From contig NC_037598.1 in the NCBI RefSeq assembly GCF_003073045.1, positions 15,104,486-15,168,485 of the forward strand: a stretch of 64,000 nucleotides of DNA, read 5' to 3'. This document shows positions 24,240 through 46,422 of the stretch, one piece after another. The notes under the pieces are model-generated. The model was given only the letters and a program-made list of their open reading frames with translations. It did not search any database and was not told where the DNA came from. The stretch's first letter is position 1; each line of letters begins with the position of its first letter. The DNA is from Pomacea canaliculata. Its lineage: Eukaryota; Mollusca; Gastropoda; Architaenioglossa; Ampullariidae. The translations under genes and the position numbers were made by a program.

Positions 24240-24640
24240 AATAATATTAATGATTTATTTAGCGCATTTATTTAGCACTGTACTGTAGATTCAATGCTCT
24301 TTACAAACATTTTCAGAACACAAAACATTGAAACCACACATTCAACCGACACAAAATGTACAAAACAAGCAAGCAGCCGGCTAGAGACAGAACACATAAA
24401 AGACGGAAAAATCTGCGCTTGAGGGATTGGGCAAAAGAAAGGACCGCGAGTGGGGAAAAATGAATCCGAAGAGGTAGCGCAGGTAGCTTATACTTCTGTA
24501 TACAATAAAAAAAAAAAAAAACTGAGACTTTTAAGTTGAATGCTCATTCTAACAATACTCTCTGGAAAAGTGAATGGTCCTGAAAAGGACCTAGAGAAAT
24601 AAATTTTTTTTTAAAGTAGTTTTTGGATTTTTTTTTCTTT
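24240..24640 (-). repeat. Duplicated 3' flank, copy 1 (pairs with 38520-38960)
   Basis: About 400 bases that align along their length with 38520-38960. Shared marks are the GATTTATTTAGCGCAT start, a block containing CACTGTACTGTAGATTCAAT, the AGCAGCCGGCTA segment, the GGATTGGGCAAAAGAA segment, and the histone-type stem-loop with flanking GGAAAAGTGA. Both copies lie directly 3' of a minus-strand winged-helix gene, so this is a paralogous gene flank. Its distal part also resembles the SINE-like family seen elsewhere in the window. Confidence 0.8.
24576..24591 (-). terminator. Histone-type mRNA 3' stem-loop of the 24.7 kb gene
   Basis: On the minus strand this reads GGTCCT-TTTC-AGGACC: a perfect 6-bp stem with a 4-base loop, matching the replication-dependent histone mRNA terminator. 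It lies 85 bases after the stop codon. A CCAGAGA motif follows 11 bases later, where a U7 snRNA-binding element would be. Confidence 0.85.
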
Positions 24641-24675
24641 TCAAGCTTGAGTTTTCGCAAGTGCTGGCCTTAATA

Positions 24676-25146
24676 TCACCTTCGTCGTCGCCGCCTTCGA
24701 CGTCGTCCTCGGCGTCTTCGGCGTCGTCCTCTTCGGCGTCTTCTTCGGCGCCTTCGTCGGCGACGGCGAGATCGTCGGCGTCTACGGCGCCTACCGCGGC
24801 TGTGAAATCGCCGTCGACAACGCCTAGGACCCGAATCGACAGAACGGCTGCGTCGTCTGCGGCGTTTGGTAGTAGCTTCGTTGGGCTCGCTGCTCACCAT
24901 GAACCGGCTCTCGGTAGCCTTGGTCAGCGCTCCTTCTCGAATGCCTCTGAGGACGATGGTCTTGAGCTGCAGGAAGGTGGGCTGCACACCCGTCTGCGAC
25001 GTGATCGCATTGCGAATGTCTGCGAGCTTGGAGCCCTTTCTGTCCGCCAGCTGCGAGATGGCCGAGGCCACCCGTGACAGGGAGATCTGCGGCTTGCCAC
25101 GGGTCATCCCGTCCTTGGAAGACTGGAACTTGATGGACCCCTGCAT
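24676..25146 (-). CDS. Winged-helix (H1-type) protamine-like protein with polyarginine tail, 156 aa
   Basis: Predicted sperm-type nuclear basic protein that would bind and compact DNA. Residues about 15-87 form an H15/linker-histone-like winged helix: SLSRVASAISQLADRKGSKL, a helix DIRNAITSQTGVQPTF, then LKTIVLRGIREGALTK and the wing ESRFMV. After residue about 92 the protein is nearly all arginine with a few Ser, Gly and Pro (start RRRRRRSRSVDSG), encoded by mixed CGN and AGR codons. The gene has no intron and a true ATG start. A CCAAT box lies on the minus strand near 25241 and an AATAAATGG, possibly a TATA variant, near 25181-25189. The mRNA would end in the histone stem-loop at 24576. Architecture matches molluscan protamine-like (PL-I) proteins, which derive from histone H1. 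Testis function is inferred. Confidence 0.8.
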   Translation of the reverse strand: MQGSIKFQSSKDGMTRGKPQISLSRVASAISQLADRKGSKLADIRNAITSQTGVQPTFLQLKTIVLRGIREGALTKATESRFMVSSEPNEATTKRRRRRSRSVDSGPRRCRRRFHSRGRRRRRRRSRRRRRRRRRRRRRGRRRRRRGRRRRRRRRR

Positions 25147-25253
25147 CTTGACAGATGGACGACCGAAGACTCTCGCTCACCATTTATTGCTAGCGGTTTC
25201 TATGGGGCGAGGTTTCCATGACGGTCGCTTCTTCTCTGCGATTGGGTGGAGAC

Positions 25254-25573
25254 TTTGGCAACGCCATTAGCAACACACGGGGTGAACGATAAGGGAGGGG
25301 GAGTTGTCATGGTGCATGGATCAGCACAGCAAAAGAACGTGGTTGCTATGGAAGACTAATTCTAGGTCTTTGTCTACGAAGATCAAATGACGTACACATC
25401 ATGACGCCAATTTCTTAATGTTGCTAAAGCTTACGTCAAGCTATTGAGGTTGGACTGAAGGGAGGAAAACTAATGGCTTTCAAATGGTCTAACTCTAACC
25501 AATTCATTTGCATCCTGTTTAGAGGAGGTTATGATTTGCATGCGTACAAAATCTGTCGTAGTGTACTTCAGCA
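25254..25573 (-). repeat. 5' flank of the 24.7 kb gene, copied at 40571-40873 and 42197-42509
   Basis: About 320 bases upstream of the polyarginine gene recur almost unchanged in both halves of the 1.6 kb tandem duplication. Shared marks include GTGGTTGCTATGG, ACTAATTCTAGGTCTTTG, ATGACGTACACATCATGACG (with a CRE-like TGACGTAC) and ATGATTTGCATGCG, which contains ATTTGCAT, an octamer-type element typical of histone promoters. Similarity stops at CAGCAC near 25575. Confidence 0.85.
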
Positions 25574-25802
25574 CGTAATAATTTGTTACAGCTGCAATAG
25601 AACACGAGGAAAATGAAAGCAATCGGAACGCAATAAAGTCACGTAACATAGAAACTAGAGAAATTATTTCGATTATTATTTACAAATCTATACTTAACAC
25701 TTCCAGAATTTCTGTACTTGATATTTTTATTATAAAATTGGTGTGGCGAATTTGCACGAAGCAACATCACGATACGGCATAGTATACAGTACAGTACGAA
25801 CA

Positions 25803-25870
25803 TGTGATGATGATGATAATGATCATTTATAACGCGCAGATGTCCATTCATAAGAATGCTCTTTGCGCAG
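25803..25870. repeat. SINE-like repeat, type 1
   Basis: A GATGATGATGATAATGAT tract runs into ATTTATAACGCGCAGATGTCCATTC and ends with CTTTGCGCAG. The same order (trinucleotide tract, TTATAACGCGC-like box, partly palindromic TGCGCAG end) recurs at 36023 and 39750. Confidence 0.6.
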
Positions 25871-25936
25871 TAAAAACAAAATAAATAATGTAAAACAAGT
25901 CATGTTGTATGAAATTGTGTGGCCAACATCACCTTG

Positions 25937-26416: not shown

Positions 26417-26419
26417 GTC

Positions 26420-28088: not shown

Positions 28089-28096
28089 TATAAAAA
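28089..28096 (+). promoter_or_regulatory. TATA box of the 28.2 kb gene
   Basis: TATAAAAA, 76-83 bases before the likely start codon. A first ATG at 28124 opens an upstream frame of only 11 codons, so translation of the main protein would follow leaky scanning or reinitiation. Confidence 0.65.
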
Positions 28097-28171
28097 GGAA
28101 TCACTCACGCTAGTCGCAGCATATGGTGCCTCGTCCGAGTGGAGCTGGTCGTCTCTGAAACCACAAGCGGG

Positions 28172-28657
28172 ATGCGGATGCAGAACGGCAAGGCTACTCG
28201 GACCGTCTGCGCCCGAAGTCCGAAGCCCAAGGCCGGGGTATCAACCAAGCTGACGGTGAAGACGATCACTTCAGTCCTTGCACGGCTGCGGGACCGCGGT
28301 GGATCACGCTACACGGACATCAAGAATGCCATCGCCCAAGAGACGGGCGTGGAGCCCAGCTTCTTCGAGCTGAAGGCGCTCATATTGCGGGGCATGAAGG
28401 AAGGAGTCATCCGGCAAAATAGCGACGGTCGCTTTCTTCTGCGCCTGACCAAGATGTTAAATCGCAAATCGCGCATGAGCAGCAGCGCCATCACCAACGG
28501 CGGCGGTCGACAGGGCTGCGGAAGACGGCGGCGGAGTCGACGGAGAAGCGGGAGACGGCGGCGTCGTCGTCGTCGTCGACGAAGCAGAAGACGACGACGG
28601 CGAAGCCGACGCAGACGACGTAGCAGAAGGAGGAGGAGAAGAAGGAGAAGGCGATAA
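28172..28657 (+). CDS. Winged-helix (H1-type) protamine-like protein with polyarginine tail, 161 aa
   Basis: Paralogue of the 24.7 kb gene on the opposite strand, about 3 kb away. Residues about 24-97 form the winged helix: LTVKTITSVLARLRDRGGSR, DIKNAIAQETGVEPSF, LKALILRGMKEGVIRQ, then DGRFLLRL. The spacing matches its paralogue almost residue for residue. The C-terminal third is almost pure arginine broken by single serines. Two ATGs, at 28172 and 28178, could start it; the longer frame upstream opens only with GTG. There is a TATA box, no intron, and a histone stem-loop 67 bases after the stop. This is predicted to condense DNA in sperm, by analogy with molluscan PL-I proteins; expression is not shown by sequence. 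Confidence 0.8.
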   Translation: MRMQNGKATRTVCARSPKPKAGVSTKLTVKTITSVLARLRDRGGSRYTDIKNAIAQETGVEPSFFELKALILRGMKEGVIRQNSDGRFLLRLTKMLNRKSRMSSSAITNGGGRQGCGRRRRSRRRSGRRRRRRRRRRSRRRRRRSRRRRRSRRRRRRRRRR

Positions 28658-28723: not shown

Positions 28724-28739
28724 GGTCCTTTTCAGGACC
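28724..28739 (+). terminator. Histone-type mRNA 3' stem-loop of the 28.2 kb gene
   Basis: GGTCCT-TTTC-AGGACC, a perfect 6-bp stem and 4-base loop identical to that of the 24.7 kb gene although the surrounding 3' flanks differ. CCAGAGA follows 12 bases downstream as a likely U7 target. Confidence 0.87.
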
Positions 28740-29468: not shown

Positions 29469-31177
29469 TTGTCATTATATGGTAGTGTGTGGGGGAGGGA
29501 ACATTTACAACAGCTGCTGGACAGTGGGATTATTAGACCATCACATTCACCCTGGTCATCGAATGTTGTATGGGTTAAAAAGAATGACGGTAGCCTAAGG
29601 AAATGTGTGGACTATGGACAGCTCAATGCACGGACAATCAAAGACTCATACGCGCTGCCGAGGATAGAGGAATTGCTCGACGCCTTAGCGGGGTCAAAGT
29701 ATTTCACTGTCCTCGACTTAAAGAGTGGTTACCATCAGGTAGAGATAACCGAGGAGCACAAAGAGCGTACAGTATTCTCAGTTGCGCCCCTTGGATTCTA
29801 TGAATACAATCGCATGGCGATGGGGCTGGCGAATGCACCGGCCACATATTAACGCCTCATGGAAGAGTGTTTGGGGGACCTACATCTCTCTCAATGTATA
29901 TGCCTGGTGTTTCTCGATGACATCATTGTGTTTTCCAGTACGTTTGATGAGCATCTGGAAAGAGTGGAGAGAGTGCTAGACAGACTGCGGGATTGTGGCT
30001 TGAAATTGAACCCCAAGAAGTGCACATTCGCACAGGATCGGGTTAAATATGTGGGACATATCTTGTCAGCGGCTGGTGTCGAGACAGATCCTGAAAAATG
30101 TGAGAAAGTGAAAAACTGGCCAGTGCCCAGGACACCTGAGGATGTACGACAGTTTCTGAGATTCGCAGAGATAGAAACCTCAGTCTTATCAGAGATCTCT
30201 TCTTTTGGCCTGGCATGACAGCCGACGTGGAGGACTGGATCAAGAAATGTCCCCGCTGTGTGCGCTGGAAAACACTGGGCACCGATCAGGCACCGCTGGT
30301 CTCCATAGTTACCACGGAACCATTGGAGCTGGTGTGTATGGATTATCTGTCCCTCGAAACATCAAAAGGAGGATACCATCATATTCTAGTCATCACAAAC
30401 CATTTCACGCGCCTAGCTCAAGCCATCCCGACTCGGAACATGACGGCAAAAACAACAGCCGACGCCCTCGTTAATAATTTCATCGTTCATTACGGGGTGC
30501 CAAAGCGACTACATTCTGACCAGGGAGCCAACTTTGAGAGCCGCATCATAAGGGAGCTGTGCCAGATCATCGGGTGCAGTAAATCGCGCACCACCCCCTA
30601 CCACCCCATGGGGAATGGAATGTGCGAAAGATTCAATCGCACGTTGCTGGACATGCTTGGGACGCTGGAGCCGCGTCAGAAAGAAGACTGGAAAAGTCAC
30701 GTGGCCAGTCTTGTGCACGAATACAACTGCACTCGCCACGAGTCGACCGGCTTCTCCCCTTATTCCTTGATGTTTGGTCGTGACCCGCGTCTCCCTGTCC
30801 ATCTTTTATTTGGCGTCGATAGCAACGATCAAGGGCGACAACCCCTTACTAAGTATGTCGACAGTCTGAAGAAACGACTGACAGAGTCTTTCCATCTGGC
30901 AGCTGCACCCTCCAACAAGGCAAGCGAGCGACAGAAAAGTGGCTACGATTCCAAGGCAAGGGCAGCCACTATAGAAGTGGGAGACCGTGTGCTGGTGAAA
31001 GCCGTTGCCTTTGACGGCAAACACAAACTGGCGGACCGCTGGGAGAAAGAGGTGTACAGTGTGCTGAGCCACCCTAACAGCGCCATACCCTTGTACGTTG
31101 TACGCAGAGAGGACGGCGCAGGAAGAAAACGGACTCTTCACCGCAACATGTTACTACCAGTGGGCGGATTAGTATAA
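29469..31177 (+). mobile_element. Ty3/gypsy LTR-retrotransposon fossil (pol fragment)
   Basis: Old, incomplete copy of a gypsy-type retroelement. The first part is reverse transcriptase, recognised by [28 protein letters not shown] and the FLDD active-site motif. The second part is integrase, with a zinc-binding CPRC region, a DDE core (MDYL, SDQGANFE, ERFNRTL) and a GPY/F-like C-terminal segment. The element is broken, with at least two breaks, and no gag or flanking LTR was recognised. Much of the protein sequence is still well conserved, suggesting moderate rather than great age; with no LTR pair no date can be given. Confidence 0.92.
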
Positions 31178-31603: not shown

Positions 31604-34425
31604 ATTGACTGCAGGGCTTCTGCTTACGCAAAAAATTGCGTACAATGCTCATTAAAAGTTCGGAGGACCCCTTCAAATTTGGGCGAAGAACAGATACAAA
31701 ATTGGGTAAGTGTAGTGTCTGACATCGTAGCCCAATCTATTGTTGTCGTCTGCTACAATGTGAGAATAACTTCCCTTGAAGTGAGGTTTTTTTTCCCCTT
31801 TCCGAAAAGAGTTCATTAACATGTTTCCAAGATGTCGTTGACAGCGTGGTTAACTCAGAAACGGAAAGAAAGTGACAAACAGCAAGATAATGAAGATGGT
31901 TAACCCACATCATCAAGCGCTGTTCCTAGTACCTGTGATGACAACCCACCCAAAAAGGAAAAAGTGAGAGCCTACAATACTGTGTGGGAGAAAGAGTTTT
32001 CGTGGCTCGAGTTTGATGAATCGTCCTAAGTCATGAAATGTTCCGTGTGTGTAAAGACTCAGCAGAGAAATGCTTTCGTCACTGGATGCACTAATTTTCA
32101 ACGAAACGCATTAACAAGACACGATCGAGTCGACTGCCGACCACAGAGCTGCCAATGCTACTGAAAGGAGGCAAGCTGACATGGTCCAATCAATGAAAAA
32201 ATCCTATGAGAAGACATCGCACGTGTTGTTTGCTCAGATGGGAGCAGATCTGATCCTGGCGACAGATGACCTGCCAGATACCAAGTTCAGCTCTCTACTC
32301 CATGCTCAGGTATGAAACAGCTTGAATTAAATTGCATCTCTCTCTCTGAGTCTTTCTAGTTTCTTACTTTTTTCCCTGTCATCAAATTACCCATTATCTT
32401 CCTTTCCCTCTCCCATTGTTTAGCCTCTAGCTTGTCAGCTTGGGTATGCCCATATGCCTTGCACTGACCTGTGTGAACTGGCACACTAAACCCAACCTCA
32501 TAAATACATAGTCTTGCATAGTTGTTTAGTGGTAATGAATCTTAAAAGTAAAAACCTAGTAGCTCTCCAACTGTACTAGAGCTTGGCAGTATATGGTCTT
32601 GATATTACAAGTCCTCTGCACGAGTTTACTTTTAACAGAATTTTTAGTGGTAAACTATTACTGACAGGAAATATCAGGACAGTAATAAAAACTTATCTAT
32701 TCCAGGCCTTGCTGGTGAGGACACAAGAGCAGCCGGACGACCACCAGCCAACCTACACAGACCACAACAAAGCAGCAGAACTTCAAGCCTCTCTGGGCAA
32801 TGTGTGCAGACAGCAGATCTTCGCGAGGATCAAAGAAAGCATAGGCATCATGTTGGACGAATCTCTGGATGTGGCAGTTCAGAAGAAGCTTGTGATCTTT
32901 TGTAGAGTCATTGATGAAGGGGTTGGGCAAACTGAATTCGCTGCAAACATTGAGGTGAAAGATGGAAAAGCCGACACAATCACGCAGGCCATCATGGACT
33001 TTCTGCATGATGTTGATGTTCCTCTAGAAAGGGTGTCAGGAATAGGCACAGATGGAGCTGCTGTCATGGTGGGCAGGTTGAATGGTGTGGTGGTCAAACT
33101 CCAGAAGCAGAACCCCAAGCTTGTTGGAACCTGGTGTGTGGCTCACAGGCTGGCCCTTGTGTGTCAGTGGGCTTCAAAGAGTGTCCCCTACCTGGAGACT
33201 GTGCAGACAACCCTGGCCAACATCTTTGACTTCTTCCATTACTCAGCCTGCAGGTACAACAAACTCAGAGAGCTCAAGGAGTTGATGAAAACACAGGTCA
33301 GAAAATTCAAGAAACCCACCAATGTCAGGTGGCTGTCACTGCATGAGAGTGTGAAAGCTGTCTACTCTGCTTGGGGGTGTCTGTGCTTGGCACTGGAACG
33401 TGAGGCTGCAAGCAAAAACACTGGAGGGGCAAAGGCTAGGGAGATACTGAAGGCTGTCAAAAGCTACAAATTCATCGGTGTCATCTGCCTCCTGTGTGAC
33501 ATTCTATCCACCTTGACCAGATGTAGCAAGGTGTTCCAGAAGGACAGCATTGACATTCGACAAGTTGAAGACATGCTGGCTGCAACATCTGCAACTCTGA
33601 AAGACCTGGCTGAGCACCCTGGGTCTGTTCTTCAGGACTTCTTCACCCAGGTGGCAGACAGTGGACATTTCCAGGGCATCACAGTGACTGGTAGTGAAGA
33701 CATTGTGAGGAGAATAAGGACAGACTTTGTGAGAGAGATCCATCAAGAAATGGACAAGCGATTTCCAGCAAATGACATGGCTGTTCTGAAAGACCTGGCA
33801 ACAGTCCTGGACCCCTCTCACCTGCCACACACCCAGGAAGAAATCAGGGAGCATGGAAAGGAGGCACTTGAGAGGCTGCTGACCAGATATGAGGAGATCG
33901 ATGGGGAAGCTGCTAGGGACTCCTTCAGACTGTTCAAAGCATTGCTGGGCAAACACAGAGAAAAAGGTTTGCAGGCCATGTATCAGCATATGTTGCTGCA
34001 GTGTACAGAGACATTCCCCGAGTTTGTTACTCTGGCTGAGATCTCAACAACCATCCCAGTCACCTCAGTACCATGTGAAAGGGGCTTCTCCTCACAGAAC
34101 CTCATCCACACATCCCTCAGGAGTTGCCTCAACATCAAGCCAGTGGAGAACAAAATGTTCATTAAGAATGCTGCCAAGCACCCCAAGTACAGTGAGCATA
34201 AGCTCATCACAGATGCCTATCACACTTCATGGAACAGAAATGTCACCGTTTCTGAGTGACTCAACCTTATAGTGCTTTGTGTGTTGAATAAAGTATGTTG
34301 ATTGTTGATTTTTTTCCACATTGTAAATGGACCCCTTAGAGTTGGCCTGGGACCCCTTAGAAATCTGAGGAAGGGGTCCCTGGGACCCCAAAAAATTTAG
34401 TCTTAGCAGAAGCCCTGATTGACGT
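31604..34425 (+). mobile_element. hAT-family DNA transposon, about 2.8 kb, with TIRs and 8-bp target duplication
   Basis: Terminal inverted repeats CAGGGCTTCTGCT begin at 31612 and end at 34417, where the right end reads AGCAGAAGCCCTG. They are flanked by ATTGACTG (31604-31611) and ATTGACGT (34418-34425), matching at six of eight positions, as expected for an 8-bp hAT target site. Inside is one transposase gene on the plus strand. The right subterminal region repeats GGGACCCC motifs. The slightly diverged target duplication and stops in the first exon indicate an aged, non-autonomous copy. Confidence 0.9.
31832..34259 (+). pseudogene. hAT transposase (ZNF862-like type), first exon decayed
   Basis: Cut-and-paste transposase. 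Exon 2 (32706-34259) is fully open and encodes about 517 residues with the RNase H-like fold. First catalytic Asp lies in GIMLDESLD, second in GIGTDGAAVM, then TWCVAHRLAL. The C-terminal hAT dimerisation region contains the third acidic residue in SVPCERGFSSQ. Exon 1 (ATG at 31832 to 32309) carries a TTF/BED-like zinc finger (MKCSVC, then FVTGCTNFQRNALTRH) but contains several in-frame stops. The intron at 32310-32705 has a CAG/GTATGA donor and a TATTCCAG acceptor in phase 0. Upstream open sequence at 32583-32705 is intron, not protein. Related sequences have been domesticated in vertebrates (ZNF862, SCAND3 type), but the broken first exon argues against that here. Confidence 0.88.
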
Positions 34426-36400
34426 ATTGTAGGTTTACGACTTATGTCTTATGATAAGAGATAACTTGTTGCTGTATGGTTTAAACGGATTTGTTTGGAA
34501 TGCGCAAGTCCGACTGCCGGTCGTGACAATAGTACCTGACTTAATAAATAATAAAGATAAAAAAACAGACCAATTTTCAAGTTTTTTTCCCCCAACATTT
34601 ACGCGAAAACACACAAGTATAAAAAGCAAAACAAAATCAGCTAACATATATGATTTTAATTCTGCTGAATTGACTATTTCACGATATTGACCGGTTGTGC
34701 AATGTCACTCAGCAATGTCACTGTCCGGGGCGTTGACGCTTTCATCTTGTTCATCAGCAACAGACATCGCCATCGCCTCACTGTGCGAGACGCGATCAGG
34801 CGTCGCGGGGCTTACTCTCTCTCTCAGACACACTCGCACACACACAGACAAACTTCCACGCGCCCGATGCGAGCAACGAAACCAATCACTTCTCAGTGGA
34901 CATAAAACACACACACGAAGTTGCAATACAAAACTGAAATGTATTGGCGGTCACAGAGCGCGACCTCAAAAGATATGAGAAAAAAAACCAGATTGCAGAG
35001 AAAAGAGAAGAACACTTTTCACGCAGTACAGATGATCTCCCCTCCCAGGCCACTGCCTGAGACAACTCGCTGTTCACTGTCACGCACACACAGTTCGTCC
35101 TCAGGATGACTCGTCTGATGCCAGGCGATGTTGACGTCGCCGCACCCAGTGACCCGTCACACTCTCGCCTGTTGCTCGGCGGCTTGGTGATTGCACAGTC
35201 AGTCCATACGACGACTTGTCTGATGGCCGCTGGTCGATGGTCCAAGCGTATATCTTTCTGAGCCTGTTTAGAGCGAGTCTCTCGTAACGTTTAATCATTA
35301 CACAAATAAAAATTCCCTAAGATATAAACTCAACACATAAAGTTTCCCCCGCCTCATATACAGCTATTCAGAGATCTCTCAGCCACAGTCACTCGCGCAT
35401 CCAGCAATTCTGCGTACTGATCAGCCAGCTAACGGCGACATTTTTGAACATTTTTTGAACATATTTTTATTTAATGGCTATAAGCCCGGGGGCATTTTTA
35501 GCCATAACATCACAGTTATAAAAAGCACAATGACAATTTTATCTCAGTAACAAGCTCACAACAGGTGGTGACAATATAGCAAATATATGTAAATAGATAC
35601 ATGGCACTATGTATGTATATAAATATATATAGATTATTTAAACAATGAAAATACTGTTTGAATAAATTTGCTTAAGTTAATAAGTATACGCCTGGATTTA
35701 ACATTCATTAGCTGCTGAAATTTAAATTCATTTAGATGATATACAAAATATACCGGAAGTAGCGCTTTCTGTGAAACAGTTAAAAAAATTAAGGGTGGAT
35801 ACACACAAACAAATAATGAAATTCATCGCCTACCTCATCTAGATTATACAATGGACATTTTCTTAAATATCTCGGTATACCGCTAGGAAAAGCTTTATTT
35901 ACTCACCCAATTCGGCCCGTGACGCGTTGATTCTGTCACACACAGAAAACGCAGGAGAAAACTGATCCGTTGCTCGCACCCGTCCCACGTGCACCACAGC
36001 AAATCCCGAGCACAACAGCTTTTGATGATGATGATGGCGATTTGTAATGCGCAGGTATCCATTCCGAGGAATGCTCATTGCGCAGAAAAAAACAAAAGAA
36101 GAAAAAATAAAGTGAAAAATATATAAAACGCCAGGAAAAGTAAAAAAATATAGACAGAAGTGTTCCTTGGTAGTTTAAGACGGGTTTGAAAGAAACAGAT
36201 GGGTTTTCAATTTTTTTGCGAAATGTGGTTGGTGAGGTGATGGTGGAGAGTGACTTTTCATTCTCTGCCGACCCGATCCCAAGCCTTCAATACCTCGTCC
36301 CTGTCTCTCTCTGGATTACCCTCTCTTCTTACGTAATAGCCATATTTTACGTCAGCACCAGTGACGACAAACCTTCCAAGGAGCAAGCGTTGCTAAACAC
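34426..36400. other. Spacer with one copy of the acidic-repeat unit
   Basis: At 34705-34790 the minus strand reads HSEAMAMSVADEQDESVNAP followed by DSDIAE and a stop, a diverged single copy of the 20-residue unit found in tandem at 36.4 and 37.8 kb. The rest (34800-36000) is unassigned. A SINE-like copy lies at 36023-36085. Confidence 0.5.
36023..36085. repeat. SINE-like repeat, type 1
   Basis: GATGATGATGATGGCGAT tract, then TTTGTAATGCGCAGGTATCCATTCC and TGCTCATTGCGCAG. Same layout as the copy at 25803. Confidence 0.6.
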
Positions 36401-36402
36401 GG

Positions 36403-36522
36403 GCCGTTGACACTTTCATCTTGTTCATCAGCACCAGACATCGCCATCGCCTCACTGTGCGGGCCGTTGACGCTTTCATCTTGTACATCAGCACCAGACA
36501 TCGCCATCGCCTCACTGTGCGG
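36403..36522 (-). repeat. 60-bp coding minisatellite, two units
   Basis: Two head-to-tail 60-base units which on the minus strand read HSEAMAMSGADEQDESVNGP or a close variant. They are followed (toward 36525-36580, upstream on the minus strand) by QPAENVIDVDEAN. They were part of one array with the units beyond 37459 before the solo LTR inserted. Confidence 0.85.
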
Positions 36523-36762
36523 TATGTTAGCTTCGTCTACATCGATGACGTTCTCGGCAGGCTGCTGATTGTCGCTGATTGTTGCCACCAGAAGGCTGGT
36601 TGGTAGGTAGCTCACTCGTCGGCAACAAGCGGGAACAAGAAGGACTGCTGGCACCAACACATCAGGTACCAACACTTTTCTCTATTATAGTTGCGTTCGT
36701 GTGTGTGTGTGTGTGGATTGGGGGCGGGGACTGCATGTGTGTGTGTGTTATACATCGCCTCA

Positions 36763-37452
36763 CTGTGTGTCACGGACCAGTCTGTCAGGGGCGGGAGGTT
36801 GTTGCCCCTGTCTTTTGTTTTCTTAGAGATTGTTGCCCTTGCCTTGCATTTAAGAGAGTGTTGATTGCGTCGTGGTTTCGCGTCACAACCCGACGTCATT
36901 TTATGACGCAAATTGTAGAGAGACGCAAGATGAAAAATATTTGGAAGAGAGCAGACGGCTGTGAGCAGGGAAGAAAGGCGGACGTAAAGTGTGTGTGGTG
37001 TTCGCTTGGGATATTGTGTGTGTGACGATCCCTGCAAGTTTATCTGTGGTGCCAGCCTTGGATCATGTGTTGATCCCCCGGAGTATATTTGTAGTGCCGG
37101 GAGTATATGTGTGGTGCCGGGAGTTTATGTGTGGTGCCGGGAGTATATTTGTGGTGCCGGGAGTATATTTGTGGTGCCAGCTTTGGTTCATTTGTTGAAC
37201 CCCTAAATTCGTGCAGTGGAGTGTCGAGAACACCATAAGACGGTACACGGACTGTGTGTATGTGTGTTTTGAACGTTAATGAGCACACGAACAGTGCAGA
37301 TTGAAACGGACTTTGTATATATTTCGTTAATATGCGTTAAAGTTTTTGTTGTCCTCGACAAATCTTTGTGTTATATGGTTGAAAGAACACGCAAGGGGAC
37401 GCGTGCGTGTTGTGAGAGAAAGAGATTTAAAACTAGCGTTCCTGACACTGTG
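36763..37452. mobile_element. Solo LTR of an LTR retrotransposon, with 5-bp target duplication
   Basis: A 680-base segment (36768-37447) starts TGTCACGG and ends CCTGACA, and is flanked on both sides by CTGTG (36763-36767 and 37448-37452). Removing it would restore the repeat unit it interrupts, which reads CACTGTGC elsewhere. Inside, 37080-37180 holds five copies of a roughly 20-base tandem repeat containing GTATATTTGTGGTGCCGG. Family is probably Ty3/gypsy by the TGTCACGG end; it is a lone LTR fossil. The identical target duplications point to a fairly recent insertion. Confidence 0.85.
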
Positions 37453-37458
37453 CTGGCT

Positions 37459-37988
37459 GTTGACGCTTTCATCTTGTTCATCAGCACCAGACATCGCCAT
37501 CGCCTCACTGTGCATATGTTGGCTTCGTCTACATCGATGACGTTCTCGGCAGGCTGCTGATTGTCGCTGATTGTTGCCACCAGAAGGCTGGTAACTCACT
37601 CGTCGGCAACAAGCGGGAACAAGAAGGACGGCTGGCACCAACACATCAGGTACCAACACTTTTCTCTATTATAGTTGCGTTCGTGTGTGTGTGTGGATTG
37701 GGGGCGGGGACTGCATGTGTGTGTGTGTTATACATCGCCTTACTGTGCGGGCCGTTGACGCTTTCATCTTGTTCATCAGCACCAGACATCGCCATCGCCT
37801 CACTGTGCGGGCCGTTGACGCTTTCATCTTGTTCATCAGCACCAGACATCGCCATCGCCTCACTGTGCTGGCCGTTGACGCTTTCATCTTGTTCATCAGC
37901 ACCAGACATCGCCATCGCCTCACTCTGCGGGCCGTTGACGCTTTCATCTTGTTCATCAGCACCAGACATCGCCATCGCCTCACTGTGC
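37459..37988 (-). repeat. 60-bp coding minisatellite, one unit plus four tandem units
   Basis: One unit at 37459-37511, then a copy of the neighbouring unique sequence, then four near-identical 60-base units at 37749-37988. On the minus strand the four units are open and read HSEAMAMSGADEQDESVNGP with changes at one or two residues. The unit contains no stop in several frames, so frame choice rests on the acidic neighbour QPAENVIDVDEAN and the adjoining winged-helix fragment. A (GT)n-rich segment shared with 36690-36770 lies between. Confidence 0.85.
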
Positions 37989-38003: not shown

Positions 38004-38411
38004 CTACATCGATGACGTTCTCGGCAGGCTGCTCCTCGCTTTTCCTCCGATTGCTGCCACCAGAAGGCTGGTTGGTAGGTAGCTCACTCGTCGGCAACAA
38101 GCGGGAACAAGAAGGACGGCTGTCATTCTCTCTACTCGATGATGCGAATAAATCTGGTAACTCCCAGGACTTGTACCAGAGGCCTCGTGCTCACTGGTCT
38201 GCAACGACCGGGAAGATGAAGGACGGCTGGTACTGTCGCTGCTGGATAATGCAATCATGGATTCGCTGTAAGAGGCCGCTTGATTTAAATGTGCCTTTAG
38301 GCGGTATCGCTTGTTTGCTTCTTCGACCGTTCCACGCTGGATGGCTCTAAACATTGTTTCCTGGATGGTCGGCAGAGAATATCGCTTCCCATCGAGGAGG
38401 AATCTCTTCCA
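38004..38411 (-). pseudogene. Broken winged-helix linker-histone-like gene with serine-rich tail
   Basis: The minus-strand frame open from 38411 reads KRFLLDGKRYSLPTIQETMF, then RAIQRGTVEEANKRYRLKAHL. This matches the second half of the winged helix in the 39.0 kb gene (TIISTAYSLVHQGRAEVDNSRFRLRNLAG). A serine-rich stretch follows (SESMIALSSSDSTSRPSSSR). The first half of the domain is not in this frame: an in-frame TAG lies at 38412-38414, and a nearby frame has RSYLAIVEEI, which could be its remains. The frame then shifts before QPAENVIDVDEAN and the acidic repeats. I infer a fifth member of the cluster, now broken, whose tail was the 20-residue repeat. Confidence 0.5.
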
Positions 38412-38519: not shown

Positions 38520-38960
38520 AAATTTAACAGATTTATTTAGCGCATACCTCCACTGTACTGTAGATTCAATGCGCTTTACAAGCATTTTCAGAACACAAAA
38601 CACTGAAACCACACATTCAAACCGACACAAACTGTATACAACACACATAAACATGTAAACCAGAACATATCATCAAGCAGCCGGCTAAAGACAGAACACA
38701 TAAAAGACGGGAAAATATGCGCATGAGACATGTCAGGGATTGGGCAAAAGAATGGACCAGTAGACCGCGAGTGGGAAAAGATGAATTTGAGAAGAGATCC
38801 GACGAGGCAGCTAAAAAAACCCGGCACATAGAATATACTTCCGTATACAATAACGTAAAAACGGAGAAAATTTGAATGCTCGTTCTGACCATAACATCTG
38901 GAAAAGTGAGTGGTCCTGTAAAGGACCTAGAGGAATAATTTTTTTTAAAGCTTTTTTTTA
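38520..38960 (-). repeat. Duplicated 3' flank, copy 2 (pairs with 24240-24640)
   Basis: Same series of blocks as copy 1, from GATTTATTTAGCGCAT through AGCAGCCGGCTA to the stem-loop with its GGAAAAGTGA neighbour. It lies 3' of the 39.0 kb winged-helix gene. The flanks agree better than the proteins they follow. Confidence 0.8.
38912..38927 (-). terminator. Histone-type mRNA 3' stem-loop of the 39.0 kb gene
   Basis: Minus strand GGTCCT-TTAC-AGGACC: perfect 6-bp stem and 4-base loop, differing from the other two only in the loop. It is 54 bases after the stop codon. Confidence 0.8.
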
Positions 38961-38980: not shown

Positions 38981-39370
38981 TCAATCACGGCTAGTCGATG
39001 GTGTTGGCATATCGCCGCCTTTGGTGCTGTCGTCGTTGGCTGCAGCTTTTTCGGTGGTGTCATCTGCAGGGGGCCGATTGTTGGCTGCATGTGGCTGGCC
39101 AGGCGGTTGGCTGGTATCTACCGACGGCCGATTGTTGGCTGTAAGCTGCTGCTTATCCCCTGCCAAATTCCGTAGTCTGAAGCGACTATTGTCCACTTCA
39201 GCTCGCCCCTGGTGTACTAGACTGTATGCTGTTGATATTATCGTCGCCGCGATGTGTCTTCTTCCTTCTTGACGTAGCTGCCTCTGAATTGCGGTTACTG
39301 AAAAGTAACTTTCCTTTTTCATCCTTTTCAGGCAGCCCTCAAGGTAAGCTGGCGTCAGCTTTCGCTTCAT
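38981..39370 (-). CDS. Winged-helix linker-histone-like protein with polar tail, 129 aa
   Basis: Predicted small nuclear protein. Residues about 5-70 can be aligned with the winged helix of the polyarginine proteins: LTPAYLEGCLKRMKKESYFS, VTAIQRQLRQEG, IISTAYSLVHQGRAEV, then NSRFRLRNL. The tail is rich in Asn, Pro, Asp, Thr and Ala (ANNRPSVDTSQPPGQPHAAN) and has no arginine run, so it would not condense DNA like a protamine. It is intronless, with a TATA box at 39426-39433 and a histone stem-loop. Its 3' flank is shared with the 24.7 kb gene. The H15 assignment is by pattern and context and is weaker than for the polyarginine pair. Confidence 0.65.
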   Translation of the reverse strand: MKRKLTPAYLEGCLKRMKKESYFSVTAIQRQLRQEGRRHIAATIISTAYSLVHQGRAEVDNSRFRLRNLAGDKQQLTANNRPSVDTSQPPGQPHAANNRPPADDTTEKAAANDDSTKGGDMPTPSTSRD

Positions 39371-39815: not shown

Positions 39816-39824
39816 TACACAAAG

Positions 39825-41433
39825 TTTCCACTTCTTCTTGAAGTTATATCCACAAGAAAATCCACAAGAAAATCTAAAAGTAAAATCCAAAAACAAATCC
39901 ACAAGAAAATCCAAAAGTAAAATCCAAAAGTAAATCCACAAGAAAACCTCACAAGAAAACCTGGAGAGCAAAAACAAAACCATTATTTAGATAAATGTAA
40001 ATTCACTCTCAACTATTTCAAACCATATTCATGAAGTATACACAAATAGATCACACTCATCCAATACAGAAATACACATTCACCGAAAAAATCAACAAAG
40101 ATTCACACTCACCTCAACAGGTTCAATGCTAACAAACATACAAACAAGTCTGGTACTTCAAGTCGGTTCAGGACTTGTACCACACAATACAAATCTGGTC
40201 AGGATTTGTACAACAACACATAGTCCGTCAAGACTGCTTACAAACAAAAACCGTCCGCTCCGGACGCACTGACAACACCAAAGAGACTGTCCCTTCTCCC
40301 CGCTCCCGTCAAGGAAAAACCCCAATCACACCACACACATCCAACACACTACCACACTCTTTCCTTTGTTCAAAGTAACCACCAAACAACCTATCAACAG
40401 AACTTAATTACACAAAGACCGGCCGGCCATCCCCGTATGGCGCGGCACGCCTCAGACTGTTGACACTAACAGCCCCAGTGATAGCTGTCTTTACCACTTC
40501 ACCCGAACAATTACTTTTACTAATTAAAAAAAAACATTAAAAAAAATACATCTCAGCAGGTTTGTGACAGTAGAGACTATGGCAACACCGTAAGCAATAC
40601 ACGGGGTTGTCATGGTGTGTGACACAGCAGGAGAACGTGGTTGCTATGGTACACTAATTCTAGGTCTTTGTCTACGTAGATCAAATGACGTACACATCAT
40701 GACGCCAAGTTCTTAATGTTGCTAAAGCTTACGTCAAGCTATTGAGGTTGGACTGAAGGGAGGAAAACTAATGGCTTTCAAATGGTCTAACTCTAACCAA
40801 TTCATTTGCATCCTATTTAGAGGAGGTTATGATTTGCATGCGTACAAAATCTGTCGTAGTGTACTTCAGCACTATTGTTTTCTGAATCTCTTGAGTAAAG
40901 GGACGCCCAACGTTTCCGCTTTCGATCGCATTATTCAAATTTGACCTCTTATAAGGCGAGATAATTCACCTCTCCCTGCAATTCAAATATTTTTTTTTTT
41001 AAAAGGGAGAAAGCGGCAGTCTCTAAGAGCATTTTCCACTCTGAATTAAGTTACTGCTGAAGGGAAAAGTAAATCATTTAAATAAAAAGTCTAGATGTAA
41101 TTTTGTTCACCATGTCAAGGAGCTCGACTCTCTCATTCTGATAAATCTTGTAGCCATATTCTGTAAAGCGATGATGATGATGATGATGATGATGATTGAT
41201 CTCATTCTGCTCAAATTTCTGAAGAACGGGTTAGCCCTGAAAAAGGCTTAGAAAAATTTCCGGGTCTTTTTGCAGCACGAGAGGTGCTGAACCTGCTAAA
41301 AAAAATCTTTAGTTGCTTCCACCATGTAAAATACTACAATACAAATGCAAAATAAATTAATTCACTGGATTGGGTAAGTTTAAGATATAATGCTGAACCC
41401 TACTCCACTGATGAGGGATCAATGGTTGCATGA
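39825..41433. repeat. 1.6 kb tandem duplication, unit A
   Basis: Starts TTTCCACTTCTTCTTGAAG and ends GGTTGCATGA; repeated directly at 41434. Contents in order: a minisatellite of CAAGAAAATCC / AAAAGTAAAATCC elements (39850-39965), a unique segment with AAGTCTGGTACTTCAAGTC, an orphan 5' flank of the polyarginine gene (40571-40873), a GAT microsatellite near 41170, and a histone-type stem-loop with one mismatch (41233-41248, minus). No gene body is present. Confidence 0.92.
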
Positions 41434-42808
41434 TTTCCACTTCTTTCTTGAAGTTATATCCACAAGAAAATCCAAAAGTAAAATCCAAAAACAAATCCAC
41501 AAGAAAATCCAAAAGTAAAATCCACAAGAAAATCCAAAAGTAAAATCCAAAAGTAAATCCACAAGAAAACCTCACAAGAAAACCTGGAGAGCAAAAACAA
41601 AACCATTATTTAGATAAATGTAAATTCACTCTCAACTATTTCAAACCATATTCATGAAGTATACACAAATAGATCACACTCATCCAATACAGAAATACAC
41701 ATTCACCGAAAAAATCAACAAAGATTCACACTCACCTCAACAGGTTCAATGCTAACAAACATACAAACAAGTCTGGTACTTCAAGTCGGTTCAGGACTTG
41801 TACCACACAATACAAATCTGGTCAGGATTTGTACAACAACACATAGTCCGTCAAGACTGCTTACAAACAAAAACCGTCCGCTCCGGACGCACTGACAACA
41901 CCAAAGAGACTGTCCCTTCTCCCCGCTCCCGTCAAGGAAAAACCCAATCACACCACACACATCCAACACACTACCACACTCTTTCCTTTGTTCAAAGTAA
42001 CCACCAAACAACCTATCAACAGAACTTAATTACACAAAGACCGGCCGGCCATCCCCGTATGGCGCGGCACGCCTCAGACTGTTGACACTAACAGCCCCAG
42101 TGATAGCTGTCTTTACCACCTCACCCGAACAATTACTTTTACTAATTAAAAAAAAACATAAAAAAAATACATCTCAGCAGGTTTGTGACAGTAGAGACTA
42201 TGGCAACACCGTAAGCAATACACGGGGTGAATGAGGGGGGGGGGGGTTGTCATGGTGTGTGACACAGCAGGAGAACGTGGTTGCTATGGTACACTAATTC
42301 TAGGTCTTTGTCTACGTAGATCAAATGACGTACACATCATGACGCCAAGTTCTTAATGTTGCTAAAGCTTACGTCAAGCTATTGAGGTTGGACTGAAGGG
42401 AGGAAAACTAATGGCTTTCAAATGGTCTAACTCTAACCAATTCATTTGCATCCTATTTAGAGGAGGTTATGATTTGCATGCGTACAAAATCTGTCGTAGT
42501 GTACTTCAGCACTATTGTTTTCTGAATCTCTTGAGTAAAGGGACGCCCAACGTTTCCGCTTTCGATCGCATTATTCAAATTTGACCTCTTATAAGGCGAG
42601 ATAATTCACCTCTCCCTGCAATTCAAATATTTTTTTTTTAAAAGGGAGAAAGCGGCAGTCTCTAAGAGCATTTTCCACTCTGAATTAAGTTACTGCTGAA
42701 GGGAAAAGTAAATCATTTAAATAAAAAGTCTAGATGTAATTTTGTTCACCATGTCAAGGAGCTCGACTCTCTCATTCTGATAAATCTTGTAGCCATATTC
42801 TGTAAAGC

Positions 42809-42839
<31 letters not shown>

Positions 42840-43076
42840 GATCTCATTCTGCTCAAATTTCTGAAGAACGGGTTAGCCCTGAAAAGGGCTTAGAAAAATT
42901 TCCGGGTCTTTTTGCAGCACGAGAGGTGCTGAACCTGCTAAAAAAAATCTTTAGTTGCTTCCACCATGTAAAATACTACAATACAAATGCAAAATAAATT
43001 AATTCACTGGATTGGGTAAGTTTAAGATATAATGCTGAACCCTACTCCACTGATGAGGGATCAATGGTTGCATGAT
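41434..43076. repeat. 1.6 kb tandem duplication, unit B
   Basis: Near-identical to unit A and directly adjoining it. Differences are mainly length changes: extra minisatellite elements at 41462-41586, a run of about 12 G near 42237, and one more GAT. The 5' flank copy is at 42197-42509. High identity indicates recent duplication or an assembly duplicate. Confidence 0.92.
42875..42890 (-). terminator. Orphan histone-type stem-loop in unit B
   Basis: Minus strand AGCCCT-TTTC-AGGGCT: perfect 6-bp stem, 4-base loop, preceded by A-rich sequence. No histone-like gene lies upstream of it within 300 bases. Unit A carries the same loop with one stem mismatch at 41233-41248. Confidence 0.6.
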
Positions 43077-44390
43077 GAATATAGCTACAAACCAGACCCA
43101 GTCTCTTAAATAAACCCTAGTGGGACTTCAGAGAAAATAATGGCATTAAGTGACTCAAATCACCGTTAATCAAAGAGTTTAATCAAAGCTATTCTTTATG
43201 AAAGTAAAACAATTTTAGCGGTCATAGTTAATAGACACACACAGACTGCTCATTTTGACACCATGAAAAGCAAGTGACAGAATTATTTTATAAATAAAAT
43301 CTATGCATATAAAATACATTATTTTGTACTTCATAAAATGTGTATTATTTGTTAATACAAATATTACACTGACCACACATTCTTGTCAGGAGAGTTAACC
43401 TGTAAGCCGATGCTATGCCTGCCTGTTTGTTAAATGGTTTATCAAGACTGTAAAGAATAACATACATATTAGCTGATATATTAGCTAAAGCTAAAGGTAA
43501 CATTTAAAAAAGGTGTCTAGTACTTAAACATTATACTTAAATGACATACCACTTTTGTTCTAATTCCTTTCTTCATCAGCTCCTCTTTCCCCATATTTTG
43601 AAGAAGCAGGGTGACCTGATTCAGTTTGTGAATTACATTCTGTAGTGCTTTGCTCTGCTCATCAACTTTGCTGAGAACTCTGTTCAAAAATGTATTTGAA
43701 ATCAAAATATTACTTTTAGTCTTTAAAGTAATGACAAAACAAAACTATGGATGTAAGTCTATTGACAATTTTTTTAATTAACAGAAAATGTTTAGATGGA
43801 TATAATAAGGATGTGCATGTAGACCATTAAAAACACAAAACCTGTGCTTGTATAGTGATCCTCATGAAATCATAGAGGGAGACAAAATAAACTTACTGGT
43901 AAAATTCACTGAGCCAGACCTACAGTCAGTGTGATCTGCAATTAAAGATTGTTATAATTAGTTCTTTTTGTAAATCATGTAAAATAAAATGAAAAAAATG
44001 GCATGCAGCATTTTAAGAGAATAGAAAATATGTGATCAGATAAGTGATTGTTAGAAAAATGACAGACTTTGACAAAGTTCATTGCATAGCTTTGGATTTC
44101 ATACATTTTGTTTTAATTTCAAAGTGTATAAGTATAAAAATAAAATTCTTTCTTTTGCTTTGCATTAATTTTCCAAAATTTTAGTTGTTCAGAAAGCAAT
44201 GTGATTGTCTTGTTGCTTTCCCCTAGAATGCACCAAGACGGAGACAAACGTTTGGTAATCGCAGCACCGCTGTTATTGAGAAAGCAGACGACGAATTTCA
44301 AGCATGACTCAATGAGTTCATGTCATAGATTTCAACTTCGAAGTTAATCATCAATAATACGAGAGATTGTGTGTGCAGTGTGCTTTACCT
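43077..44390 (-). other. Possible exons of an unidentified small coiled-coil gene
   Basis: Minus strand 43545-43680, after the acceptor-like TTTTTGAACAG, reads VLSKVDEQSKALQNVIHKLN and QVTLLLQNMGKEELMKKG, an amphipathic coiled coil, and then reaches a GTATGT donor. A 39-base block at 43897-43935 has good splice sites (TTAATTGCAG and GTAAGT), but its frame does not join the coiled coil without a stop. I do not recognise the family; the shape resembles small vesicle-trafficking coiled-coil subunits, but that is only a resemblance. Confidence 0.35.
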
Positions 44391-44392
44391 CT

Positions 44393-44463
44393 TGACTAGT
44401 TGATTTGAACCCATCATGCACTGTCATCTTGCTTCCGCCAATCGTATTCGCGCTCAACATTTC
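44393..44463 (-). other. Possible first coding exon of the same small gene
   Basis: Minus strand: after TAATTACAG comes an ATG opening MLSANTIGGSKMTVHDGFKS, ending TSQE at a GTAAAG donor. It would be the upstream exon of the coiled-coil gene. A further 5' exon may lie near 45140, in a GC-richer stretch. Confidence 0.3.
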
Positions 44464-44607
44464 ATTTCTGTAATTAGTAAATACGTGCAATTAGTAGGCA
44501 AGAGATACGATTAAGGAATTTGATTATTTACAACAAGAAGGATATGGTTAAACCATTTAAATTATCTACAGCACATATAGAAGACAGCATCATGTAAAAG
44601 CGAGTTG

Positions 44608-44980
44608 CTATAAGCCAGTGGTTCTCAAAGTTTTTCTGACCGCGGACCACTTTACTTAAGTAAAAGCTATGGCGGACCACCAAGGCCTAAGTAAAAAAAA
44701 TATGGCGGACCACCAAGGCCTTAAAATCAGTCTCTACTATGAATTTCAAATTTAAATTGCCGCATTTGTTTCATTTTAATTCAAAACTAAATGTCCTTTT
44801 GTAAAAGTAATATAGTAATAAGTTGACATAAAACTACGTATACCTCGTTCTTTGTAATTAAAATGTTAATGCGAGGAATACATCACCTTAAACATCACTT
44901 TGCTGACATATGACGACTGTCAGCCGCGGACCACCTGACATATGCCCGCGGACCACACTTTGAGAACCACTGCTATAAGC
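44608..44980. mobile_element. hAT-type MITE with perfect 8-bp target duplication
   Basis: A 357-base non-coding element (44616-44972) bounded by inverted repeats CAGTGGTTCTCAAAGT and ACTTTGAGAACCACTG. Both sides carry CTATAAGC. Internal GCGGACCAC motifs repeat several times. The CAGTGGTTCTCAAA end is a known style of hAT non-autonomous elements. The terminal repeats differ from those of the 2.8 kb hAT copy, so that copy is not its parent. Confidence 0.93.
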
Positions 44981-45439
44981 GATGTATATGTGTGAGACCT
45001 GCCGGGTACAACACGTGAGACATTTCACAAAAAGCACTACAATACTTATATATGATCATAAATTATTCATGACTGTCCACTGTTATAAAGTACAGTTGTT
45101 TTAATGGCATCTTTCACTTAACTTTATTAAGACTTACTTCAGAAATCGGCGGTGTTTCACTTGAAGATGGACGTACAGTTCAAAATGTCCGCGCGCAGGT
45201 CAAAGCGAGGCCGGCCGGTGTGACGTCGCACTACACGCGGCCGGGAAGGGGAACAGAGGGGGGATGGAAACAGCGGGTGGAGTGATGCGACACGATCACG
45301 TGGCTACCAAATCGAGCGCGGCTGAAGAAAAAAAGCGCGATGGACGCGTCAGTTTAGGATCGAATTACACGCTTCCCTCCCCAAAGTCTCACTTCCCTAT
45401 AGGGGCCGTTCAAACACCCAACGCCCTTGCAGGCTGGGT

Positions 45440-45600
45440 ATCTGGTAATATAGACAGCGTTGTTTTAATTAATGTATATGTTTAATACGATGAATTAGAT
45501 TTTAATTAATTTTGACTGCGGGTAGTCAAAAAATTCGGACCAATTTCAAAAGCGGATAATACAGACAGCGTTGTTTTAATTAATATATCAAGGATCCAAC
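45440..45600. repeat. Short imperfect tandem duplication
   Basis: TAATATAGACAGCGTTGTTTTAATTAAT at 45447 recurs with one change about 110 bases later at 45557. No coding function. Confidence 0.55.
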
Positions 45601-45898
45601 GACAAAACATACGATTTTTAATTGTTTTTAAAAATGCAGCAGACGTTTTACAAAAGCAGAATTAATCAGCAAAAGATTAAACACATCGGCAAACACAAAA
45701 TTGACAGAATTCCTATACATGCTTGCATGGTTTAACAAAGGATCAACAACACAGGCTATATATAGCCTATAGCACTGGGAAAAGTGTTTATATTTATAAT
45801 AAAAAGAAAAATAATTGTCTAAAGAGCTTTGTGGAGTTTTTTAATATGTGAAACTCTGTGTTGTTATCGTTTTGATGAGGAGTAGGGGTGGGGGGACG

Positions 45899-46333
45899 TC
45901 AGTCAGTGTCATTTGTTTTCCCTTTCCAAAGAGTTCCACCCATCTTAGCCTGTCTGCCCTTTGGAGTGCTGCTGTTTCGTTGCTTGCGGTTGTCGTCCAT
46001 GTTTTCTGCGCACCCGTCGCCGCTGCGCCGCTTCTGACCTCCCGACGACTTTCTACCTTTGCTTGTACTGCCCAGCAAACATTCGTGGATCAGCTTGAAG
46101 TAGGCTTCACACTTCTTATCTCGTGGCGACGAGTCAGACGCTTTGATGTATCCCGATTTGCACGCCTTGTCGATCACCTTGCGAAGCTGTGAGCGCATCT
46201 GCCTCGAGTCCTTGTCTTGGGACAGGAAGCGGTCGACGATCGAGGAGACGATGGAGCCATTTAGCTCGCCCAAAGATGCTATGGCCGACATCAAAAGGGC
46301 TAGCAGCAGCTGGCGTCGCTTCTTGGAGTTCAT
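45899..46333 (-). CDS. Lysine/arginine-rich linker-histone-like protein, 144 aa
   Basis: Fourth intact small basic protein of the cluster. The likely start is the ATG at 46333 (MNSKKRRQLLLALLMSAIAS); the frame extends upstream only to a GTG. Residues about 8-80 fit a winged helix: LLMSAIASLGELNGSIVSSI, then QMRSQLRKVIDKACKSGYIK and EAYFKL, the last resembling the FKL wing of H1. The tail is Lys, Arg, Ser and Gly rich (GRKSSGGQKRRSGDG), more like a somatic H1 than a protamine. It has a TATA box at 46416-46422 and no intron. I found no perfect stem-loop after the stop, so its mRNA may be polyadenylated. Confidence 0.65.
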   Translation of the reverse strand: MNSKKRRQLLLALLMSAIASLGELNGSIVSSIVDRFLSQDKDSRQMRSQLRKVIDKACKSGYIKASDSSPRDKKCEAYFKLIHECLLGSTSKGRKSSGGQKRRSGDGCAENMDDNRKQRNSSTPKGRQAKMGGTLWKGKTNDTD

Positions 46334-46415
46334 GGTGCCACGGGCTGACTGGCAGCTTTGCTCGGGTTGTTGGCTTTCTCGGGCAGGTAAGACCAGTTCC
46401 ACAGCAGGCCGTCTG

Positions 46416-46422
46416 TTTTATA
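46416..46422 (-). promoter_or_regulatory. TATA box of the 46 kb gene
   Basis: Minus-strand TATAAAA 83-89 bases before the start codon, with a CCAAT-like sequence further upstream near 46440. Confidence 0.6.

Follow-up and report, generated by a model that had tools for sequence, protein, structure and literature searches.

The Gene Cluster

The stretch of DNA considered here, 64,000 nucleotides of contig NC_037598.1 (called the window throughout), contains a cluster of small genes spread over 22 kb, which an earlier note had read as a set of related winged-helix chromatin proteins with unrelated tails. I will refer to the genes by their approximate kb position in the window: 24.7, 28.2, 38.0 (broken), 39.0 and 46. 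Their coordinates are given in Table 1, together with those of the hairpins and repeated segments associated with them. The four open intronless genes and the broken frame near 38.0–38.4 kb are present as the note described, and the tails of three of the genes are as it described them as well: polyarginine in 24.7 (47 arginines, 1 lysine and 1 acidic residue in 63 residues) and in 28.2 (42 arginines, 2 lysines and no acidic residue in 71), and neutral rather than basic in 39.0 (6 lysines plus arginines and 9 acidic residues of 61). The tail of 46, said to be rich in lysine and serine, is in fact mixed, with 14 lysines plus arginines and 6 acidic residues of 53. Three features go beyond that description: histone-type stem-loops 3' of the genes, a 3' flank shared by 24.7 and 39.0, and an out-of-frame stretch in the tail of 46.

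Table 1. Positions in the window of the clustered genes, their 3' hairpins and the repeated segments around them.
Feature	Position	Strand	Remarks
Gene 24.7	24676..25146	-	156 amino acids, uninterrupted open reading frame (ORF); linker-histone-like domain and arginine tail
Gene 28.2	28172..28657	+	161 amino acids, uninterrupted ORF; linker-histone-like domain and arginine tail
Gene 39.0	38981..39370	-	129 amino acids, uninterrupted ORF; predicted winged helix and neutral Asn/Pro/Asp-rich tail
Gene 46	45899..46333	-	144 amino acids, uninterrupted ORF; linker-histone-like; tail partly out of frame relative to Pomacea protein P0002
Broken 38.0 copy	38411-38007 (open stretch), near 38.0-38.4 kb	-	33-residue part, 38295..38393, aligns with gene 39.0
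Stem-loop after 24.7, GGTCCTTTTCAGGACC	24576..24591	-	Rfam Histone3, 28.7 bits, E 4.5e-4
Stem-loop after 28.2, GGTCCTTTTCAGGACC	28724..28739	+	Rfam Histone3, 20.1 bits, E 0.77
Stem-loop after 39.0, GGTCCTTTACAGGACC	38912..38927	-	Pattern scan; one loop base different
Stem-loop of presumed lost copy, AGCCCTTTTCAGGGCT	42875..42890	-	Pattern scan
Tandem duplicate of the AGCCCTTTTCAGGGCT stem-loop	41233..41248	-	One G-U pair; fifth hairpin
3' end and flank of 24.7	24243..24616	-	Homologous to 38521-38950
3' end and flank of 39.0	38521..38950	-	Homologous to 24243-24616
Upstream stretch of 24.7	25246..25574		Recurs at 40603-40872 and 42191-42512, 92-95% identity
1.6-kb tandem duplication	39825..43076		97.2% over 1646 columns
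60-bp repeat region	36400..37988		7 of 8 copies; eighth at 34726

A Linker-Histone-Like Family

Judged by their protein sequences, 24.7, 28.2 and 46 are members of a single family that resembles the linker histones and has relatives in two other snail records sets. The relatives are P0001 and P0004, hypothetical proteins of Nucella lapillus, and two proteins of Pomacea canaliculata, P0002 (LOC112574391) and P0003 (C0Q70_09615), the last of which is labelled H15 domain-containing in one source. The best Pfam match of all three genes is Linker_histone (PF00538, curated cut-off 22.4 bits), found at 19.8 bits for 24.7 (E 9e-4), at 17.5 bits for 28.2 (E 0.005) and below the cut-off for 46 as well (E 0.054). 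The same family is the best Pfam match of P0001, P0002 and P0003 (E 0.005, 0.016 and 2e-4, with 21.9 bits for P0003). Identity to these relatives is 70% over 108 amino acids for 24.7 and P0003, a length that spans the domain and the start of the tail, 53% for 28.2 and P0001 (E 1.2e-15) and 67–69% for 46 and P0002.

The link between 46 and the other two comes from profiles. A profile built from 28.2, P0001, 24.7 and P0003 scores 17.6 bits against gene 46, where the best of 2000 shuffles reaches 10.9, and 33.7 bits against P0002, where the best of 2000 reaches 9.9. In reverse, the profile of 46 and P0002 places 24.7 above all 2000 shuffles and 28.2 above 1999 of 2000. The AlphaFold model of gene 46 is poor, with a mean pLDDT (predicted local distance difference test) of 47.7, four helices and no strands. 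A six-frame profile scan of the window found no further clear family member beyond the four genes. With a mixed profile, 38.0 ranked best after those four (E 0.099), and stretches at 40.8 and 42.5 kb lay at noise level (E 4–9). By inspection, none of the eight ORFs of at least 45 amino acids between 39.4 and 45.8 kb resembles a family member. The H1-type pattern that the earlier note had drawn through all five genes is supported beyond chance for 24.7, 28.2 and 46, where the proposed Pfam search returns linker histone as the best match, albeit below the cut-off. By sequence it does not extend to 39.0 and 38.0, for which Pfam gives no match.

Histone-Type 3' Ends

A 16-nt hairpin, with a 6-bp stem and a 4-nt loop, stands soon after the stop codon in three of the genes, at a distance of 85 nt in 24.7, 67 nt in 28.2 and 54 nt in 39.0. 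The hairpins of 24.7 and 28.2 match GGYYCTHHTHARRRCC, which I take to be the histone stem-loop consensus, without a mismatch, and that of 39.0 departs from it at one base of the loop. Sites within two mismatches of GGNCCTTTTCAGGNCC number four in the 64 kb, as compared to 0.25 expected, a count reached by none of 100 shuffles. These are the sites after 24.7, 28.2 and 39.0 and the one at 42890-42875.

In the alignment of the five hairpin copies, all 30 cells pair; the six pairs are intact in each of the five copies, and two of the six have changed on both sides. The covariation score is reached by 11 of 500 shuffles and the number of two-sided changes by 245 of 500. Because there are only five copies, and these related, the covariation is supporting rather than decisive. 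The CAGA that follows the hairpin is invariant in all five aligned copies and is a candidate for the purine-rich downstream element that pairs with U7 snRNA.

Gene 46 has no stem-loop after its stop codon and has an ATTAAA 54 nt past it. The first AATAAA lies 404 nt past the stop codon in 24.7 and 444 nt past it in 39.0, and neither AATAAA nor ATTAAA occurs in the 500 nt that follow the stop codon of 28.2.

At the other end of the genes, TATA-like boxes are found 61–89 bases 5' of the start codons of 28.2 (at -84), 39.0 (at about -62) and 46 (at -89); one was looked for before 24.7 and none was found. The stretch upstream of 24.7 (25246-25574) contains two octamer words, ATGCAAAT, at distances of 395 and 367 bases from the start codon, presumably like those of some histone promoters. 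Upstream RFX (X-box) sites, which seemed abundant on inspection, were considered as a sign of expression in spermatids and set aside: the four 500-bp upstream stretches contain 59 weak sites against 46.4 at random (p 0.12), and at two stricter thresholds they contain 16 of the 243 sites (7.6 expected by proportion) and 3 of the 20 (0.6 expected). The motif was chosen after the sequence had been inspected and part of the stretch upstream of 24.7 is a local repeat, and the counts are not used as evidence.

Local Duplications

The 3' flanks of 24.7 and 39.0 are 71% identical over 443 columns with gaps, and collinear blocks within them reach 86–93%. Since the flanks are so alike and the coding regions have no detectable similarity, the coding regions seem to have separated before the flank came to be shared, and the 3' end appears to have been moved or duplicated. 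The shared flank may itself be a dispersed repeat. The 1.6-kb tandem duplication contains both extra stem-loops as well as both copies of the stretch upstream of 24.7, and these I infer to be the remains of lost gene copies. The sequence supports a history in which gene ends of the histone type were copied within the locus more than once.

A 60-bp unit, present in eight copies over 34.7–38.0 kb and open in four of six frames, accounts for the acidic repeats that the earlier note had assigned to 38.0. As an acidic protein tail of that gene it must be rejected, for it reads acidic only in a frame other than that of the 38.0 fragment. The stretch at 37080-37178 contains a 20-bp unit, GGAGTATATTTGTGGTGCCG, in five copies.

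A Probable Separate Winged-Helix Pair

The earlier note had made its grouping depend in part on 39.0 and 46 being winged helices. For 39.0 single-sequence AlphaFold agrees, predicting a winged-helix fold in the order helix-strand-helix-helix-strand-strand; for 46 it gives the poor, strandless model described above. The alignment of 39.0 with the 33-residue fragment of 38.0 has a score reached by none of 5000 shuffles. The two appear from these results to be a winged-helix pair, separate by sequence from 24.7, 28.2 and 46. None of three family profiles scores 39.0 higher than shuffled sequence: that of 28.2, 24.7 and their two relatives gives -0.3 bits, a value that 635 of 2000 shuffles attain, and for the other two the counts are 435 and 547 of 2000. 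Pairwise, 24.7 and 39.0 score 21, a value reached by 1407 of 2000 shuffles. The best partner of 39.0 is 28.2, to which it is 15–17% identical in alignments, yet 114 of 2000 shuffles score as high.

One may suppose instead that all five genes are one family. In that case 39.0 and 38.0 would be H1 paralogues that have diverged greatly, the tail of 39.0 would be neutral because arginine codons are read in the wrong frame, and the locus would yield basic compactors along with neutral winged-helix counterparts that compete with them for sites. In keeping with this, 39.0 has the predicted fold, and its 3' untranslated region, stem-loop and flank are those of 24.7. Furthermore, with the frame shifted, the DNA of its tail aligns with that of the 24.7 tail (score 33, reached in 1.8% of 500 codon shuffles). 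That alignment is weak and of low complexity, however, and the corresponding one with the arginine tail of 28.2 is weaker still (6.2% of shuffles), so that the derivation of the 39.0 tail from a frameshifted arginine tail is only suggestive. The profile scores, no better than those of shuffles, and the pairwise scores also speak against a single family, as does the failure of Pfam to find a linker histone in 39.0. Flank blocks 86–93% identical are hard to square with coding similarity that cannot be detected, which argues for a later transfer of the 3' end. I consider a single family unlikely.

The proposal of the earlier note that basic, neutral and acidic members have evolved together as a set fares poorly for similar reasons: 39.0 and 38.0 stand apart as a pair, and no acidic member can be read in one frame. 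In Pomacea, the relatives of these genes (P0003 for 24.7, P0002 for 46) are listed on contigs that differ in length (34.5 and 26.5 Mb) and would be unlinked if both come from one assembly, so no conserved linkage of the two genes is seen, and a conserved set of this kind is therefore not supported.

Tails and Frameshifts

The tails of the relatives are basic in differing degrees. That of Nucella P0001 has 27 arginines and 21 lysines in 68 residues and that of Pomacea P0003 has 12 arginines, 1 lysine and 3 acidic residues in 38. The tail of P0002, the relative of gene 46, contains 27 lysines plus arginines and no acidic residue.

An alignment of gene 46 with P0002 that allows frameshifts places QRRRVRRKHGR, from another frame of gene 46, opposite QRRRVCRKHGR of P0002, where the gene's own frame reads SGDGCAENMDD. 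The frameshift gains 32, more than in any of 60 shuffled versions of the tail's codons, where the highest gain is 22. By this comparison about 11 residues of the tail are out of frame with respect to Pomacea, and the tail of 46 looks to be weakly basic because a basic tail has been frameshifted; it is presumably the gene in the window, rather than P0002, that has changed. The frameshift itself could be an error of assembly, with the true tail basic and like that of Pomacea. Two close indels that restore the frame fit errors of base calling or polishing, and the remainder of the gene retains its 67–69% identity to P0002. Such an explanation requires two errors within about 40 bases, and the C-terminus of 46 also differs from that of P0002. 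On balance an error seems to me rather doubtful, and the question bears on the frameshift alone.

The DNA of the arginine tails of 24.7 and 28.2 contains tandem repeats, which could be taken to mean that these are linker histones in decay, or what is left of an old histone array, with tails that arose through the growth of simple repeats of arginine codons and no role in sperm. The histone-type 3' ends, the two presumed lost copies and the broken copy close by would all be at home in such an array. Decay is difficult to reconcile with reading frames that are open, with the 70% identity to Pomacea that 24.7 holds over domain and tail start, and with the retention by both 28.2 and Nucella P0001 of the domain and of a tail that is strongly basic (lysine or arginine at 44 of 71 residues in the one and at 48 of 68 in the other). 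I regard decay without function as improbable, more so than a single family.

Interpretation

The layout of 24.7 and 28.2, a linker-histone-like domain followed by an arginine tail, is most likely that of H1-derived protamine-like precursors. With their probable histone-type ends, with 46 as a sister member and with 39.0 and 38.0 as a separate pair, this is the account of the locus that I consider probable. Through the domain the protein would be directed to linker DNA; the tail would neutralize and condense DNA in sperm, perhaps once cut free, as in other animals. The mRNAs of 24.7 and 28.2 would probably be matured at the 3' stem-loop by SLBP and the U7 small nuclear ribonucleoprotein, not by poly(A) addition, and their supply would in consequence be coupled to the pathway that serves histone mRNAs in germ cells. 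Gene 46 would have a poly(A)-type end and a tail that a local frameshift has made less charged. Gene 39.0 would owe its 3' end, the same as that of 24.7, to local duplication of that end. In this account the family link of 24.7, 28.2 and 46, the stem-loops, the duplicated 3' flank and the out-of-frame stretch come from the sequence itself.

Several observations weigh against this account. Every PF00538 score, whether of the three genes or of P0001, P0002 and P0003, falls short of the curated cut-off; P0004, whose gene model is without the first half of the domain, has no Pfam match at all; and sequence searches found no solved linker histone structure. The hairpins of 24.7 and 28.2 both score below the Rfam gathering score of 34, and the covariation stems from two related extra copies. 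A hairpin of the replication type is unexpected on a gene presumed to be active in spermatids, which do not divide. Finally, Pomacea P0003 terminates in a stretch without arginine and has no long arginine run, which may be an error in the gene model or a real difference.

If H1-derived precursors are the right identity, then the arginine-tailed members with a replication-dependent hairpin would be evidence either for another route to protamine-like proteins or for recruitment of that gene end, and would open the timing of protamine supply to tests. The out-of-frame tail of 46, and less surely that of 39.0, suggests how tails could switch charge fast. CGN codons read one base on give Asp, Glu, Ala and Gly, so a frameshift within repeats of arginine codons could change the charge of the tail. 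A more speculative extension, which I would not expect to prove correct, is that this snail lineage still produces its arginine protamine precursors by the route of replication-dependent histone mRNAs (in premeiotic S phase, or with SLBP kept later), that their 3' end has been passed to a neutral-tailed winged-helix gene, and that shifts of tail charge by frameshift allow basic proteins and their uncharged or acidic partners or antagonists to arise from the same DNA.

Other Features of the Window

Between 28.2 and 39.0 there are pieces of a retroelement, with reverse transcriptase and integrase core (29859-31177, plus strand), and a 469-amino-acid ORF (32850-34259, plus strand) that matches a hAT dimerisation region (E 1e-4) and, below threshold, DUF4371; this gene resembles a hAT-type transposase and has a long open frame. 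An open stretch at 43500-43760 (minus strand), containing RVLSKVDEQSKALQNVIHKLNQVTLLLQNMGKEELMKKGIRTKV, resembles a single exon of some gene. The segment 44618-44972 is flanked by CAGTGGTTCTCAAAG and its inverse complement, ends that I take to be like those of a non-autonomous hAT element, and has a 33-bp tandem repeat within. Beyond the cluster, 49597-52298 (minus strand) contains one stretch that matches Sugar_tr (E 1.7e-7) and a second, at 51.9–52.3 kb, without a Pfam match, whose sequence suggests to me a proton myo-inositol transporter (SLC2A13-like). Two stretches at 57478-58277 (minus strand), probably two exons, match Pfam Caveolin, at E 1.2e-18 and, under the cut-off, at E 6.4e-5.

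Comparison with Known Systems

Molluscan protamine-like proteins (PLs) have tails of mixed lysine, arginine and serine. The tails of 24.7 and 28.2 are almost pure arginine, unlike PL tails as generally described. The basic plan appears to be the same: PL-I of Spisula and the PLs of Mytilus, derived from H1, likewise join a winged helix of the H1/H5 type to a strongly basic, disordered tail (PMC11607694 and portions of PMC5550673 and PMC13148410). Excerpts of these three sources describe bivalve and wasp protamine-like proteins whose layout resembles that of 24.7 and 28.2.

The gene ends differ. Protamine-like genes are said, in passages of PMC11607694 and PMC13148410, to derive from replication-independent H1/H5, whereas 24.7 and 28.2 end in a hairpin of the replication-dependent type. 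Neither gene has the replication-independent, poly(A)-type end expected from the published origin, although such an end is an expectation and no defining feature. Among the matches listed in the open-access literature, no paper deals with linker-histone protamine genes of gastropods that bear a histone stem-loop; the gene ends of bivalve PLs may be covered by Eirin-Lopez 2006. The hallmarks of replication-dependent histone genes, according to part of PMC5011920, are a short 3' untranslated region, a 16-nt hairpin, a conserved element past the hairpin and an uninterrupted ORF. Genes 24.7, 28.2 and 39.0 are like them in these respects, and 24.7 and 28.2 differ in encoding a putative protamine-like protein and in their Rfam Histone3 scores (28.7 and 20.1 as compared to 34).

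Among the relatives, Nucella P0001 has the same domain as 28.2 (53%) and then a protamine-like tail, but one of Arg/Lys/Gly rather than of arginine alone. In P0004 the domain's second half and the tail of P0001 recur nearly unchanged, after a first part that is unrelated and perhaps an error in the gene model. P0002 and P0003 resemble 46 (67–69%) and 24.7 (70%) and differ from them in their tails, that of P0002 being more basic and that of P0003 without the arginine run.

Precursors in which a winged helix is joined to a protamine at the C-terminus have been described before (PMC11607694 and PMC13148410). In the spiders treated in the former (Steatoda, and the H1-H5-like protein of Araneus), the protamine is the C-terminal part of such a precursor, and the probable layout of 24.7 and 28.2 is alike, a linker-histone-like domain first and a protamine-like arginine tail after it.

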